In this document: positions 3,722-30,857 of the stretch, piece by piece
How the letters are laid out: each line of letters opens with the position of its first letter
How positions within the stretch are numbered: position 1 is the first letter of the stretch
Assembly (NCBI RefSeq): GCF_902500225.1
Contig: NZ_LR722662.1
Coordinates: 1-64,000 of the forward strand
Reading direction: 5' to 3'
Source of the DNA: Buttiauxella massiliensis
GTDB taxonomy: Bacteria; Pseudomonadota; Gammaproteobacteria; Enterobacterales; Enterobacteriaceae
DNA: 64,000 nucleotides
Notes under the pieces: model-generated
The model's input: only the letters and a program-made list of their open reading frames with translations
The model's database searches: none
Told to the model about the DNA's origin: nothing
Program-made: the position numbers and the translations under genes

Positions 3722-4506
3722 CCGCTCATGACGTTGCCATAAAACAACATCCTTCCTGCAAATTCACCCGATAGAATTATCACTACCAGCAATATCCCTG
3801 CAAATAACGGGATTTTTCTACTGCCCGCGCGGGATAATAGCCAGCCACTTACGACAAGACTTGCCAGCAACTGCCACCAGAACAACGCACTGCCGGCATC
3901 CGCGCCGGGAATTCTGTATCGCATCCACAGGGACATTGCGACCAACGTGATTCCCAGCAACAACCCAACCTTAAGAGTAGCCGGGAGATTTTGCTGAACA
4001 TAATTTGCCATGACGCTGACACTGGCAAATCCGAGCAATATTGAGGTGCCAAAGAAAGCGGACGGCGTGGCGAGTGTGTTCCACAATGGGTGCAGCGTCA
4101 TCTGGTAATAGATCTGAGAACTGACAAGTATTGCGCCAATGCCCAGTAAACAAACGGCCCAGTTGGCGGCTTTCATCCATACTGAATCGTTCGCAAACCA
4201 GCACATTATGAGCCACAGCGTCAGAGCGCCATTAAGCAAAATAAAGGCAACGACTTCACGACTAAGCCATGAACGCCCTATACCAGCAAAAGCCCGATAG
4301 GCTCCCAATGGCGACCCCAAATGTGCCAAAGAAGCACAGGAACCTACTACGGTTACCAGCCAAAAAGCTGATGCAATTTTACGCATTGTTAGCGTATCAA
4401 AAACCCTATCTCTCCCGACCAGGCAAAGAGTTAAAGCGATGACACCACCTATCCCCCATTGCGCCAGAACAGTAAAAAATACGAGCGGTAATTCATAAAT
4501 TTCCAT
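3706..4506 (-). CDS. DMSO reductase-type membrane anchor subunit (DmsC family)
   Basis: 266 residues, hydrophobic throughout, with about eight predicted membrane helices. The N-terminus ELPLVFFTVLAQWGIGG and the SLAHLGSPLGAYRAF block resemble E. coli DmsC (LMIFTVFGQ..., SMLHLGSPMRAF). In the family this subunit anchors the catalytic dimer and oxidises menaquinol. It is the last gene of the three-gene operon, 9 bp after the Fe-S subunit. Somewhat shorter than E. coli DmsC (287). Substrate of the complex cannot be read from this subunit. Confidence 0.88.
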   Translation of the reverse strand: MEIYELPLVFFTVLAQWGIGGVIALTLCLVGRDRVFDTLTMRKIASAFWLVTVVGSCASLAHLGSPLGAYRAFAGIGRSWLSREVVAFILLNGALTLWLIMCWFANDSVWMKAANWAVCLLGIGAILVSSQIYYQMTLHPLWNTLATPSAFFGTSILLGFASVSVMANYVQQNLPATLKVGLLLGITLVAMSLWMRYRIPGADAGSALFWWQLLASLVVSGWLLSRAGSRKIPLFAGILLVVIILSGEFAGRMLFYGNVMSGAPWF

Positions 4507-27600: not shown

Positions 27601-29469
27601 CTAAAACGCAAAACACGAACATCCCATCACGCCCCAGAAAGCACCTTCATCAGAAACCTGAATTGTCGATTTACGCGCTGCGTCATGTTGATGACCATGC
27701 ACATTACAACTGCCACAACACTGATGAACCTGCGCCGTCATACCCACTTTTGCCGCAGCGGGCGGGTCAGCGCGATAATGCCCCGGAACGTTAACCACCG
27801 GCGACCATTCTGGCAGCACAGGAATCGACGGCGGTGCCAGTGGCGTAAACATGCCAGCGGCGTAAACCACTTTGCCATCCACCAGCGTCAGCACCGATTC
27901 GATGCCTTTGATTTCTTCTTCCGTCACCTTGAAATAATCTTTTGAAAGGACGACTAAATCGGCAAGCTGCCCGGCTTTAATGCGCCCTTTCTTGCCTTGT
28001 TCGCTGGAAAACCATGCACTGCCCGCCGTCCATAGCTCAAGCGCCACGTCACGCGACAGGCGATTGTTATCGTCGTACATTTGCATTCCGCCGACGGTGC
28101 GCCCCGAAACCAGCCAGTACAGCGCCGTCCACGGGTTATAGCTGGCGACGCGTGTGGCATCCGTCCCCAGGCCGACAGGTAATTCTGCCGCCAGCATTTT
28201 GGCAATCGGCGGAGTTTGTTTTACAGCTTCCGTTCCGTATCGCGCGGCATAATATTCCCCCTGAAACGCCATGCGATGCTGTACGGCAATCCCACCACCC
28301 AGCGCCTTTACGCGCTCAATGTTCTTCTCGCTGATTGTTTCCGCGTGGTCAAACAGCCAGTGCAAACCGTTAAAAGGAATATCGTGATCCACCTTCTCAA
28401 ACACATCCAACATGCGGCTGATGGACTCGTTGTAGGTCGCGTGTAGACGGAACGGCCAGCGATGCTCAACCAGATGGCGCACCACACGTTCCAGTTCTTG
28501 CTCCATGCCGTCGGGCAAATCTGGGCGCGGCTGCAAGAAATCCTCAAAATCAGCGGCGGAAAACACCAGCATTTCACCCGCGCCGTTCGCACGATAGAAA
28601 TCCGTTCCCTGCCCCGGTTTGAGCATATCCGTCCATTTTTCAAAATCTTCCAGCTCATGCTGTGGGCGCTGGGTAAACAGGTTGTAGGCAATGCGCACCG
28701 TCATCTGTTTTTGCGCGTGAAGCTGGTCGATAATCTGGTAATCCTCCGGGTAATTCTGGAACCCGCCCCCGGCATCAATCGCGCTGGTGATGCCCAGCCG
28801 GTTGAGTTCGCGCATAAACTGGCGCGTGGAATTGACCTGCATTTCCAGCGGAAGTTTTGGCCCTTTCGCCAGCGTCGAGTACAAAATCATCGCATTCGGT
28901 TTGGCTATCAACATTCCGGTTGGGTTGCCATTGCGGTCGCGCATGATTTCACCGCCCGGCGGATTTTGCGTCTCTTTGGTGTAACCCACCGCTCTAAGTG
29001 CCGCCTGGTTTAGCAGTGCACGGTCGTAAAGATGCAGCACAAAAACGGGCGTATCTGGAGCCGCCTCGTTGAGTTCTTCAAGCGTTGGCATACGGCGCTC
29101 AGCAAACTGAAACTCAGTCCACCCTCCAACCACACGTACCCACTGCGGCGAAGGGGTACGCAAAGCCTGCTCTTTTAGCATCCGCAGTGCATCCGCAAGA
29201 GATGGCACACCTTCCCAACGCAGTTCCAGGTTGTAATTGAGCCCACCACGAATAAGGTGCAAATGTGAGTCATTAAGGCCGGGTATTACCGTATGGCCTT
29301 GAAGATCAACTCGCTGTGTTTCCCCACTCGCAAAGCTCATCACCCACGACTCATTTCCTACTGCGATAATTTTGCCGTCTTTGATAGCCACCGCTTCAGC
29401 CAGCGGCGCTTCGCTATCGAGCGTGTGAAACTGCCCGTTGGTGAGAATTAGTGAAGCAGATTGCGACAT
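27601..29469 (-). CDS. YtcJ-type metal-dependent amidohydrolase
   Basis: 622 residues from ATG 29469 (GAGGAGA upstream); a longer in-frame reading would run through the neighbouring gene. Amidohydrolase superfamily, YtcJ/NfdA-like: N-terminal beta-sandwich part (LTNGQFHTLD, VDLQGHTVIPGL), metal-binding H69-x-H71 in GLNDSHLHL, later metal histidines in RLHATYNES and LFDHAET, and GLGTDATR near the last Asp. No signal peptide. Unusual C-terminal extension of ~50 residues holds HQCCGSCNVHGHQH and ends in GCSCFAF. Last gene of a three-gene operon. Substrate unknown; relatives hydrolyse formamides or other amides. Confidence 0.88.
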   Translation of the reverse strand: MSQSASLILTNGQFHTLDSEAPLAEAVAIKDGKIIAVGNESWVMSFASGETQRVDLQGHTVIPGLNDSHLHLIRGGLNYNLELRWEGVPSLADALRMLKEQALRTPSPQWVRVVGGWTEFQFAERRMPTLEELNEAAPDTPVFVLHLYDRALLNQAALRAVGYTKETQNPPGGEIMRDRNGNPTGMLIAKPNAMILYSTLAKGPKLPLEMQVNSTRQFMRELNRLGITSAIDAGGGFQNYPEDYQIIDQLHAQKQMTVRIAYNLFTQRPQHELEDFEKWTDMLKPGQGTDFYRANGAGEMLVFSAADFEDFLQPRPDLPDGMEQELERVVRHLVEHRWPFRLHATYNESISRMLDVFEKVDHDIPFNGLHWLFDHAETISEKNIERVKALGGGIAVQHRMAFQGEYYAARYGTEAVKQTPPIAKMLAAELPVGLGTDATRVASYNPWTALYWLVSGRTVGGMQMYDDNNRLSRDVALELWTAGSAWFSSEQGKKGRIKAGQLADLVVLSKDYFKVTEEEIKGIESVLTLVDGKVVYAAGMFTPLAPPSIPVLPEWSPVVNVPGHYRADPPAAAKVGMTAQVHQCCGSCNVHGHQHDAARKSTIQVSDEGAFWGVMGCSCFAF

Positions 29470-29492
29470 AACCTGTTCTCCTCGGTGAAACG

Positions 29493-30035
29493 TTATTTTT
29501 TCAGCCAGCCCGCAAACAGACGCGTCATAATGGGCATCCACAGCCATACCACCAGCGCGACGACCAGCGCATCGTTGATAAAGTGCAGTAACAGCGAGCC
29601 GTGCATAGAGGGAAAAATCAGCGCAGTGATTCGCGGAACGATATTGGTGCTGGGGAAAATCACGGCCAGCGTTATCAGAAATTGCTTCCACTGTGCCGGA
29701 CGGTTGATCGTTGGTGTTTCCGGGGTGAACCAAAATGCATTTTCGGTGCGCACTTCCAGATGATCGTCCTGGCTGAGGATCGGTTTGATCTCATCAACCA
29801 ACGCTTCACGCTCAGCCGATTTCGTCCAGGTGGTGAGATTTTCTAGCGTGTCGAAGCGGATAACGATGTTGTACACATCATTTCCAGCCGTGGGGCGAAT
29901 AACATGCACGCCGCGATGACCTGGATAACGAGCGGCTGCAGGCATGATTTTCTCAAGCCACTGCTCATAACGCGCGGCCTGCCCCGCTTTAAGGGCGTGA
30001 GTAATCACCAGCGTAACCGTGTTGTTGTCCGCCAT
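29493..30035 (-). CDS. ABM-domain protein with C-terminal membrane helices
   Basis: 180 residues. The first ~100 residues are an antibiotic-biosynthesis-monooxygenase (ABM) type ferredoxin-like domain (VTLVITHALKAGQAARYEQWLEKIMPAAARYPGHRGVHV pattern), a fold used for heme, quinone or aromatic substrates and for sensing. Residues ~117-135 and ~147-172 are hydrophobic and should span the membrane twice, leaving the ABM domain in the cytosol. It lies 23 bp before the amidohydrolase gene and 3 bp after the hydrolase gene, so all three are one operon. No catalytic role can be assigned. Confidence 0.82.
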   Translation of the reverse strand: MADNNTVTLVITHALKAGQAARYEQWLEKIMPAAARYPGHRGVHVIRPTAGNDVYNIVIRFDTLENLTTWTKSAEREALVDEIKPILSQDDHLEVRTENAFWFTPETPTINRPAQWKQFLITLAVIFPSTNIVPRITALIFPSMHGSLLLHFINDALVVALVVWLWMPIMTRLFAGWLKK

Positions 30036-30038
30036 AGA

Positions 30039-30680
30039 TCAGGCTTTCCGTTCCGGCGCACCATGAACCATGGTGTAGGCGTAATCGACCCCAATGCCAT
30101 ACGCGCCGCTGTGCTCGCGTACCAGATCCATCACCGCATCGTAAGTGTCGCGTCGCGCCCAATCGCGTTGGTATTCCAGCAATACTTGCTGCCAGGTCAC
30201 TGGCACCGCACCCGCCTGCACCATACGATCGATTGAGCGCTCGTGCGCATCCACCGACGTGCCGCCTGAGGTATCAGTCACTACGTAAACCTCGAAGCCC
30301 TCTTTTAGTGCCATTAGCGCCGGGAATGTCAGGCATACTTCGGTCCACAGCGCAGAGATAATCAGCTTCTTGCGCCCGGTCGCTTTCACCGCTGCAACAA
30401 AAGCAGCATCTTCCCAGGAGTTCATTGAGGTGCGTTCGATTGGGGTTATTTCAGGATGAACAGCCAGCAGTTCGGGCCAGATGTAACCGCTGAAGCTTTT
30501 AGTTTCGACCGAGGTATAAATGGTAGGAACGTTAAAGATCTTGCCCGCTTTTGCCAGTGCTACCGTGTTGTTTTTCAAAACTTGGCGGTCAATATTGGCG
30601 ACGCCAAAAGACATTTGTGGCTGATGGTCGATAAAAATCAGAGTGGAGTTGTTCGGGTCGATCAGTTCACGTATAGACAT
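30039..30680 (-). CDS. Isochorismatase-like cysteine hydrolase (YcaC type)
   Basis: 213 residues from ATG 30680 (AAGGAAAAC upstream). Cysteine hydrolase fold with D18 in IFIDHQPQ and nucleophile C116 in SALWTEVCLTFPA, and the family's cis-peptide-type neighbourhood before the cysteine. Where many family members have the catalytic lysine, this protein has R83 (IERTSMNSW), the same as in E. coli YcaC, which has no known substrate. First gene of the operon with the ABM protein and the amidohydrolase. Confidence 0.88.
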   Translation of the reverse strand: MSIRELIDPNNSTLIFIDHQPQMSFGVANIDRQVLKNNTVALAKAGKIFNVPTIYTSVETKSFSGYIWPELLAVHPEITPIERTSMNSWEDAAFVAAVKATGRKKLIISALWTEVCLTFPALMALKEGFEVYVVTDTSGGTSVDAHERSIDRMVQAGAVPVTWQQVLLEYQRDWARRDTYDAVMDLVREHSGAYGIGVDYAYTMVHGAPERKA

Positions 30681-30809
30681 AAAGTTTTCCTTAAATTTCA
30701 TCTGATTGATTAGGGAGATAGTCCAAGCGGCTGCCTCCCAAACGGTATGAGATCTGGAAATGTCTAACTTAAGGGGATCTTATTGAAGGGAACGAAAACT
30801 AAGAATAGC

Positions 30810-30847
30810 ACCGGTTTTCCCCTTCGCTCGGCAAAAGGGAAACCGGT
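30810..30847 (-). terminator. Strong hairpin after malZ
   Basis: Arms ACCGGTTTTCCCCTT / AAAAGGGAAACCGGT form a ~13-bp stem 10 bp past the malZ stop codon. No U tract follows, so it could be a processed 3' end or Rho-dependent end rather than a classical terminator. Confidence 0.5.
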
Positions 30848-30857
30848 TTCAGGGTAC

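Follow-up and report, generated by a model that had tools for sequence, protein, structure and literature searches.

Three adjacent genes at positions 27,601 to 30,680 of a 64,000-nucleotide stretch of the Buttiauxella massiliensis genome (contig NZ_LR722662.1; this whole stretch is hereafter called the window) form a real, conserved unit, which is the minimal form of a hydrolase module. They follow one another on the minus strand and encode a YcaC-like cysteine hydrolase of the isochorismatase family (HYD), a protein joining an ABM domain to a two-helix membrane tail (the ABM protein), and a YtcJ-type metal hydrolase of the Amidohydro_3 family (AMD). Judged by their alignments, the hydrolase genes HYD and AMD are intact, keep their catalytic residues and travel together. 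They are usually accompanied by a gene for a predicted small membrane protein, either the ABM-plus-two-helices protein or XapX (DUF1427), never both at one locus. With somewhat less than even confidence, we propose that the module serves to degrade or detoxify reactive aromatic compounds, its hydrolases being held at the membrane by the ABM protein or by XapX. No description of a HYD-ABM/XapX-AMD combination was recognised in the open-access literature, searched mostly at the level of listings.

Conservation and co-occurrence of the unit

The coordinates of the features are given in Table 1. A first-pass annotation of this DNA had proposed a single operon with two distinct hydrolase folds and a membrane-tethered ABM protein with two helices, and all of this stands: the genes share one strand, with gaps of 3 bp between HYD and ABM (30036-30038) and 23 bp between ABM and AMD (29470-29492), the hydrolases match PF00857 and PF07969, respectively, and the hydropathy windows of the ABM protein agree with the helices of its predicted model. 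The open frame of HYD begins at 30701; the ATG at 30680 is the better start, since it has an AAGGAAA ribosome site and yields the 213-residue length usual among relatives.

Table 1. Features of the hydrolase unit in the window.
Feature	Position	Strand	Basis
HYD, YcaC-like cysteine hydrolase (isochorismatase family), 213 aa	30039..30680	-	PF00857, E 1.9e-22
ABM protein, 180 aa, ABM domain and two-helix membrane tail	29493..30035	-	PF03992, E 9.9e-9
ABM domain, residues 7-80	29796..30017	-	Pfam span
Two predicted membrane helices of the ABM protein, residues 115-140 and 148-173	29517..29693	-	Hydropathy, predicted model
AMD, Amidohydro_3 (YtcJ-type) metal hydrolase, 622 aa	27601..29469	-	PF07969, E 4e-132
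Cys/His-rich C-terminal tail of AMD, residues 582-622, ending GCSCFAF	27604..27726	-	Residue conservation
Operator-like block upstream of HYD	30748..30767	-	Alignment of 17 upstream regions

The three genes are not a chance feature, all of them being under purifying selection. In comparisons of the window with its orthologues in Buttiauxella and Enterobacter sp. Ag1, the ratio of nonsynonymous to synonymous substitution rates (dN/dS) was 0.012-0.032 for HYD (8 comparisons), 0.022-0.040 for AMD (9 comparisons) and 0.024-0.116 for the ABM protein (9 comparisons), with a dS above 1, near saturation, in 13 of the 26 pairs. The ABM gene is therefore the fastest-changing of the three, yet constrained.

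The distribution of the unit was followed in two main sets of loci. The named loci, 80 in number, are the top-ranking ones of 401 and are skewed to close relatives. The phylum sample comprises 398 genomes, many of one family and thus not independent; its 47 loci (L135-L181) come from 56 AMD places, the nine in the window's own family having been left out because the named loci already cover that family. AMD is patchy, being present in 47 of the 398 genomes. The close relatives of the ABM protein (the near-ABM clade, with profile scores above 150 bits) occur in 22 of these genomes, 21 of which carry AMD (Fisher p 6e-21, the genomes not being independent). With respect to position, 22 of the 28 near-ABM places are followed by AMD on their own strand at a distance of up to 1.1 kb, which in 19 cases is no more than 170 bp, and six lie elsewhere. 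More distant ABM relatives behave differently, as only one of the 19 genomes that hold them without a near-ABM gene is AMD-positive. In the genus sample, eight of 11 relatives possess both ABM and AMD, and the remaining three possess neither. The neighbourhood survey thus bears out the co-occurrence of the families, and their independent occurrence in other genomes, which the first-pass annotation had named as grounds for giving up its proposal, was not what we found.

In 70 of the 80 named and 38 of the 47 phylum-sample loci, HYD and AMD are no more than 5.9 kb apart. The ABM gene stands beside AMD in 36 of the named loci, and HYD is directly upstream of it in 25 of these. The order HYD-ABM-AMD is identical on a plasmid of Priestia megaterium, a member of another phylum. 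An Azotobacter plasmid shows the order ABM, alpha/beta hydrolase, AMD, katG, its ABM relative falling slightly under the Pfam cut-off (22.6 versus 23.1 bits), while a Pseudomonas oryzihabitans plasmid carries HYD and ABM together, with no AMD in the stretch read. Altogether, AMD relatives (E ≤ 1e-60) were found in 383 of 72,556 plasmid records. One such record, CP125156.1 from Klebsiella pneumoniae (AMD 86% and ABM 63% identical), is probably a misfiled chromosome, given its size of 5.37 Mb. Escherichia albertii plasmids CP045688.1, CP043249.1 and CP043253.1 harbour a partial AMD of about half length and about 69-70% identity, perhaps as decayed copies. In Buttiauxella brennerae, the interval between malZ and ABM is short (L043, about 4231-4434; also L035) and lacks HYD and the LysR gene, the ABM and AMD frames being open.

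The two hydrolases and the Cys/His tail of AMD

HYD belongs to the isochorismatase family, as indicated by its profile match and by the catalytic Asp, basic residue and Cys. These residues, D25, R90 and C123 (numbered from the longer frame at 30701), are each invariant across all 71 aligned rows, and their counterparts in the alignment with Pseudomonas aeruginosa YcaC are Asp19, Arg84 and Cys118 (PMC4519933). HYD shares its predicted fold with YcaC, a protein of unknown function with structures from E. coli (1yac) and P. aeruginosa (4wgf), and matches 1yac with an E-value of 5.5e-39. However, it cannot be called YcaC, reaching only half of the curated cut-off of the YcaC model NF041461 (153.6 versus 310 bits). 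On the Priestia megaterium plasmid (L127, 2964-4382), a true YcaC (373 bits, above the cut-off) directly precedes the YcaC-like HYD, and the two are therefore distinct genes able to occur together. In the crystal of P. aeruginosa YcaC, the active cysteine is reported to be modified by acrylamide, an electrophile (PMC4519933).

With regard to AMD, membership of Amidohydro_3 (PF07969) follows from the profile match and the HxH, H, H and D metal ligands, residues H69, H71, H343, H375 and D437 each being shared by 98% or more of the 89 rows. The stretch where a bridging carboxylated lysine would be expected reads GEML; E299 is conserved, and no reliable model covers this region. The same Pfam family and metal ligands are found in COG1574 YtcJ proteins, which include NfdA and metal-dependent bile salt hydrolases (PMC13081902). 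AMD has no hydrophobic segment by hydropathy. Its closest named relative, among the best 80 of 401 loci, is that of B. izardii (98% identical). In Kosakonia quasisacchari (L065), the AMD frame is broken within the gene (487 residues), reflecting either a frameshift or an assembly error.

Beyond the catalytic core, AMD carries a C-terminal tail in which C584, C588, H591, H593, H595, C617 and C619 are each kept in 92-98% of the 89 rows, the last two, within the GCSCFAF end, in 98%. An end motif of this type was found at 79 of the 80 named and 43 of the 47 phylum-sample loci. An ABM or XapX gene lies near 33 of 48 tailed AMD genes and near none of six tailless ones in the phylum and class samples combined (Fisher p 0.002), the tailless loci being few and partly related; in the class sample alone, none of the five tailed AMD genes has such a partner. 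The six relatives lacking the tail differ from AMD to various degrees, five sharing 38-53% identity with it and one 62%.

The ABM protein and XapX

The N-terminal part of the ABM protein belongs to the ABM family (PF03992), both by its profile match and by its predicted ABM fold. The AlphaFold2 model, built from 27 sequences (predicted local distance difference test score, pLDDT, 79.5; predicted template modelling score, pTM, 0.47), places two long helices after the domain, and hydrophobic 19-residue windows start at residues 119-123 and 144-160. A Foldseek search with the domain returned 203 ABM-fold matches at E ≤ 0.001, the best being 3e8o (E 3.2e-8), and SnoaB and LsrG were among them. The ABM protein thus resembles, in its predicted N-terminal fold, oxygenases and isomerases such as SnoaB, LsrG, MhuD and WhiE-ORFI, but unlike these it adds a two-helix membrane tail and is encoded in a hydrolase operon. 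F61, W70, S73 and R76 are present in 41 of 41 aligned rows, and N66 in 28; by residue spacing, N66 and W70 may correspond to the Asn and Trp of SnoaB, of which an N63A mutant is on record. The domain may itself perform an oxidation, although on the predicted model its oxygenase activity is putative.

In other loci, the slot of the ABM gene is occupied by XapX, another small membrane protein, which has no ABM domain and whose homology to the ABM tail is undetectable; the candidate homology of the two was not supported, hhalign giving a probability of 0.3%. ABM was found near AMD in 36 of 80 named and 17 of 47 phylum-sample loci, XapX in 41 and 16, respectively, and the two together at none of the 127. 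The arrangement of the XapX form varies. In Enterobacter, Kosakonia, Pantoea and others, HYD is accompanied by XapX genes, often two in tandem, divergent from AMD, while XapX stands between HYD and AMD in Rhizobium and Agrobacterium, and in E. coli at the one locus read. The amidohydrolase, hydrolase and XapX genes are found in 13 of 25 E. coli records listed, the other listed records matching by ycaC only; overall, 647 of 5,426 E. coli genomes were matched. In Enterobacter-type loci (L093, 1-3122, minus strand; L080; L115), a response regulator gene comes after HYD-XapX-XapX, and with it a frame of about 1000 residues or longer. From its start, this frame reads like a putative Ser/Thr protein kinase fused to an ATPase.

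XapX also tracks AMD at the level of genomes, PF07235 being present in 23 of 47 AMD-positive genomes, none of 33 AMD-negative genomes (picked by series number, their taxonomy unmatched to the AMD-positive set) and none of 14 control genomes. Of its places above the Pfam cut-off, 24 of 30 lie within 2.5 kb of AMD; five XapX rows under the cut-off were left uncounted. The first-pass annotation had seen the ABM protein as a membrane-bound partner of the hydrolases. This receives partial support, in that the ABM gene recurs beside AMD and is replaced elsewhere by the non-homologous XapX.

How the two forms are related can be approached from gene trees. In a quick AMD tree of 96 rows, from which L065, L178-L181 and every second named locus were left out, at least three changes between ABM and XapX labels are seen, two of them between groups that are well supported. 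Among the labelled rows of one group, of 25 rows, only XapX occurs; another, of 59 rows, carries ABM, with the Enterobacterales XapX rows nested inside. In a more careful tree of 41 rows, with a hand-picked outgroup of seven ABM rows and one with neither partner, the 15 Enterobacterales XapX rows form one clade (support 99/94) adjoining ABM-bearing Enterobacterales and Pseudomonas-like rows, and a single clade of Enterobacterales ABM rows is neither shown nor rejected (31/18). In the HYD tree, restricted to the 58 of 87 matches above 300 bits, the HYD of Enterobacterales XapX loci groups with most XapX-locus HYD of other classes (98 and 99% in the Shimodaira-Hasegawa-like approximate likelihood ratio test, SH-aLRT) and not with the HYD of Enterobacterales ABM loci. 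The exceptions are XapX rows L157, L159 and L161, which fall outside the XapX group, and ABM rows L140 and L172, which fall inside it. In our reading of these trees, HYD and XapX would have arrived jointly, displacing HYD and ABM around a resident AMD.

Only one paper with the words 'XapX domain', PMC13268207, was found in the open-access literature searched. In this genome paper of 2026, a table in the section dealing with potential virulence factors places a 92-residue XapX of Citrobacter koseri near LysR and MFS (major facilitator superfamily) efflux genes. The genes concerned (ACSR9D_06615-06655) include a 300-residue LysR, a pyrroloquinoline quinone (PQQ)-dependent dehydrogenase and a 534-residue MFS efflux protein (PMC13268207); in our view, the lengths fit the XapX form of the hydrolase module. 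Earlier, in 2005, a census had named nine domains as confined to plant-associated Proteobacteria, DUF1427 being one of them (PMC554113).

Genomic neighbourhood and proposed function

The genes that recur near AMD give the main indication of a function. DoxX was found at 17 of the 47 phylum-sample and 39 of the 80 named loci, MFS_3 at 16 and 47, alpha/beta hydrolase at 18 and 38, pirin at 9 and 6, and KatG at 2 and 0, respectively; WrbA and FMN reductase came up at no loci other than the annotated ones of E. coli and Priestia. Together with VOC, these families make up what we call the redox/aromatic set, at least one member of which lies near AMD in 35 of 47 phylum-sample and 48 of 80 named loci, and at least two in 20 and 45. 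By comparison, 20 control windows totalling 209 kb contained no AMD, HYD or XapX, one MFS_3, two DoxX, one alpha/beta hydrolase, two pirin and one WrbA; these windows are non-random, 11 lying around distant ABM genes, two in the yqjF-yhaJ-yhaK region and two around other LysR genes, and five being pieces of the window. The neighbour families therefore suggest the handling of reactive aromatic compounds, a role that rests on genes near the module in relatives and is one of association only.

A known system with similar ingredients is the mhq type of quinone detoxification cluster, which comprises a ring-cleaving dioxygenase, a C-C hydrolase, an azoreductase and an MFS transporter. In a comparable manner, the unit is flanked by VOC, DoxX, MFS transporter and alpha/beta hydrolase genes in Rhizobium relatives, and by VOC, DoxX and MFS transporter genes in Agrobacterium relatives. 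The window itself contains no operon of the mhq type, its run holding only HYD, ABM and AMD, and the words amidohydrolase and isochorismatase do not appear in the main text of PMC12673573, which deals with mhq. The recurrent MFS_3 transporter matches H+ antiporter and EntS exporter models best. A candidate ABM-like C-terminal domain in MFS_3 was unsupported by Pfam and received an hhalign probability of 1.8%.

On this basis, the following mechanism can be envisaged. The membrane protein would hold the soluble HYD and AMD at the inner face of the cytoplasmic membrane, where the Cys/His tail of AMD may bind a metal or this partner. The nucleophilic cysteine of HYD and the metal-bound water of AMD could attack, one after the other, a lactone, ester or amide formed by ring opening or oxidation, and in the window's form the oxidation might be carried out by the ABM domain. 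The compounds degraded or detoxified would be reactive aromatic or quinone-like substances, for example plant phenolics, a part of the scheme that we hold more weakly. The reaction of the YcaC cysteine with an electrophile (PMC4519933) and the reported restriction of DUF1427 to plant-associated Proteobacteria (PMC554113) are in keeping with such substrates. A bolder version, which we regard as rather doubtful, has the ABM-plus-two-helices protein and XapX as functional equivalents, each docking the same two-hydrolase enzyme to the inner membrane via the metal-bound tail of AMD; if true, it would provide a first role for DUF1427, which the census of 2005 had set apart as a domain of plant-associated bacteria only (PMC554113).

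Several observations weigh against the proposed detoxification by membrane-held hydrolases. VOC lies near AMD in only two of the 47 phylum-sample and none of the 80 named loci; the 36 named ABM loci, which are of the window's subtype, have MFS_3 in five cases, alpha/beta hydrolase in two and DoxX in one; and the window's genome holds no close relative of MFS_3 (best 26% identity). Eleven of these 36 loci have no HYD immediately upstream of ABM, and neither ABM nor XapX is found at 14 of the 47 phylum-sample loci. The exclusion of ABM and XapX applies per locus and not per genome, as several genomes hold both in different places: B. agrestis has one locus of each form, and some genomes with ABM beside AMD hold XapX elsewhere. 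As to the tail, the phylum and class samples together include 15 AMD loci that possess it but have no partner; the tail needs none and is therefore older or more widespread than the partner. The 96-row AMD tree carries long-branch warnings, and the structure model of AMD, with a pLDDT of 51, is unusable. Finally, the models best matched by the LysR regulators of the relatives are PunR (purine) and AllS (allantoin). Since the PunR match remains below its cut-off (191 versus 345 bits), this LysR leaves the inducer unsettled.

The HYD, ABM and AMD families are large, and most of their members have no known substrate. Two hydrolases with an interchangeable membrane partner and a tail of the metal-binding type would make a small testable system, in which DUF1427/XapX is linked to a definite enzyme pair and sensitivity to reactive aromatic compounds is the predicted phenotype. 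In our opinion, the exchange of unrelated membrane proteins, the Cys/His tail of AMD and the context given to DUF1427 are the most interesting new points.

Alternative explanations

The best surviving alternative, which we hold to be unlikely, is the catabolism of a nitrogen compound, in which AMD would open or deformylate an amide, ureide or N-formyl compound, HYD would hydrolyse the product and the ABM protein would be accessory. Amidases are abundant in both superfamilies, and PF07969 includes formamide deformylase and amide-cutting bile salt hydrolases (PMC13081902). In addition to the PunR- and AllS-like scores of the LysR, HYD weakly matches nicotinamidase and biuret hydrolase models, and AMD allantoinase, dihydropyrimidinase and deaminase models. 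All these matches to hydrolase models, however, are far under their cut-offs: no NCBIfam model of known activity reaches its cut-off with HYD, nor with AMD among the best 25 of 32 matches. Furthermore, the recurrent transporter is MFS_3, with its antiporter and exporter affinities, and no urease or ammonia-assimilation gene figures among the named recurrent neighbour clusters, no search dedicated to such genes having been made. The stepwise breakdown of an amide or N-formyl compound, which the first-pass annotation had inferred, is thus not supported, both for the lack of a model of known activity and because the genes added in relatives are more aromatic- or redox-like; an amide or N-formyl substrate for HYD or AMD is possible though not shown, amide-bond cleavage not being readable from their sequences.

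Less probable still is the inactivation of an antibiotic or signal, in which the pair would hydrolyse a lactone or amide, be it in an antimicrobial made by a competitor or in a signal molecule, and MFS_3 would act as exporter. The resemblance of MFS_3 to enterobactin and macrolide exporters would fit, as would the frequent plasmid location and patchy occurrence of the module. Against this stand the fixed place of the operon beside malZ in Buttiauxella, Cedecea and Shimwellia, the purifying selection in the window's relatives and the lack of an exporter in the window operon. That the co-transcribed genes are chance neighbours with no common function is very improbable: some AMD loci are without HYD and some without ABM, and the distant ABM relatives do not track AMD, but the association of near-ABM with AMD, its recurrence across families and phyla, the order kept in Priestia and the absence of any locus combining ABM with XapX already disfavour it.

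Upstream region and regulator

In the window, the operon is flanked by genes that we take to be malZ and a peroxiredoxin gene. The absence of a local regulator, noted in the first-pass annotation, is true of the window, but many relatives carry a LysR gene: by profile, LysR is near 24 of the 36 named ABM loci (21 by clustering), and it lies divergent and directly upstream in, for instance, Cedecea, Serratia, Hafnia and one uncultured Buttiauxella. LysR is absent from the seven further named loci of the ABM form in Buttiauxella, of which that of B. brennerae (L043) lacks HYD as well. Upstream of HYD, the window has at 30748-30767 a block reading TTAGACATTTCCAGATCTCA, a candidate operator by alignment. 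This block is within two mismatches of the common pattern in six of six Buttiauxella regions that have no LysR gene, and within one mismatch in six of 11 LysR-bearing regions, the other five showing 5-7 mismatches. As relatives carry LysR and the operator-like block survives, the missing regulator is, on this comparison, a recent, derived loss, and a regulator encoded elsewhere may act on the block in Buttiauxella. When the window's genome was searched with the block pattern, only its own site was found at up to two mismatches, and the reversed pattern also gave one match; because the pattern was built from the window's own site, and given the reversed match, this search tells nothing of a regulon.

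We also considered whether the LysR of the relatives might be a quinol regulator of the YhaJ type. It shares 35-42% identity with YhaJ but 50% with a LysR paralogue of the window's genome, its best model is PunR, and no YhaJ model figures among the best 25 of 47 matches. The YhaJ box TCA-N7-TGA given in PMC5031710 is not conserved upstream of HYD. Quinol sensing by this LysR is thus a weak lead.

A scan for promoters and terminators called nothing upstream of HYD. Between malZ and HYD, an inverted repeat, accggttttcccctt ... aaaagggaaaccggt, lies at 30810-30849 and is kept in other Buttiauxella; it may represent the malZ terminator, although the terminator scan did not call it. The paralogue mentioned above (L124, 4439-5353, minus strand) is, with 50% identity, the closest relative in the window's genome of the LysR lost at the operon, and its neighbours are presumably a gabT-like gene and an amino-acid permease gene.

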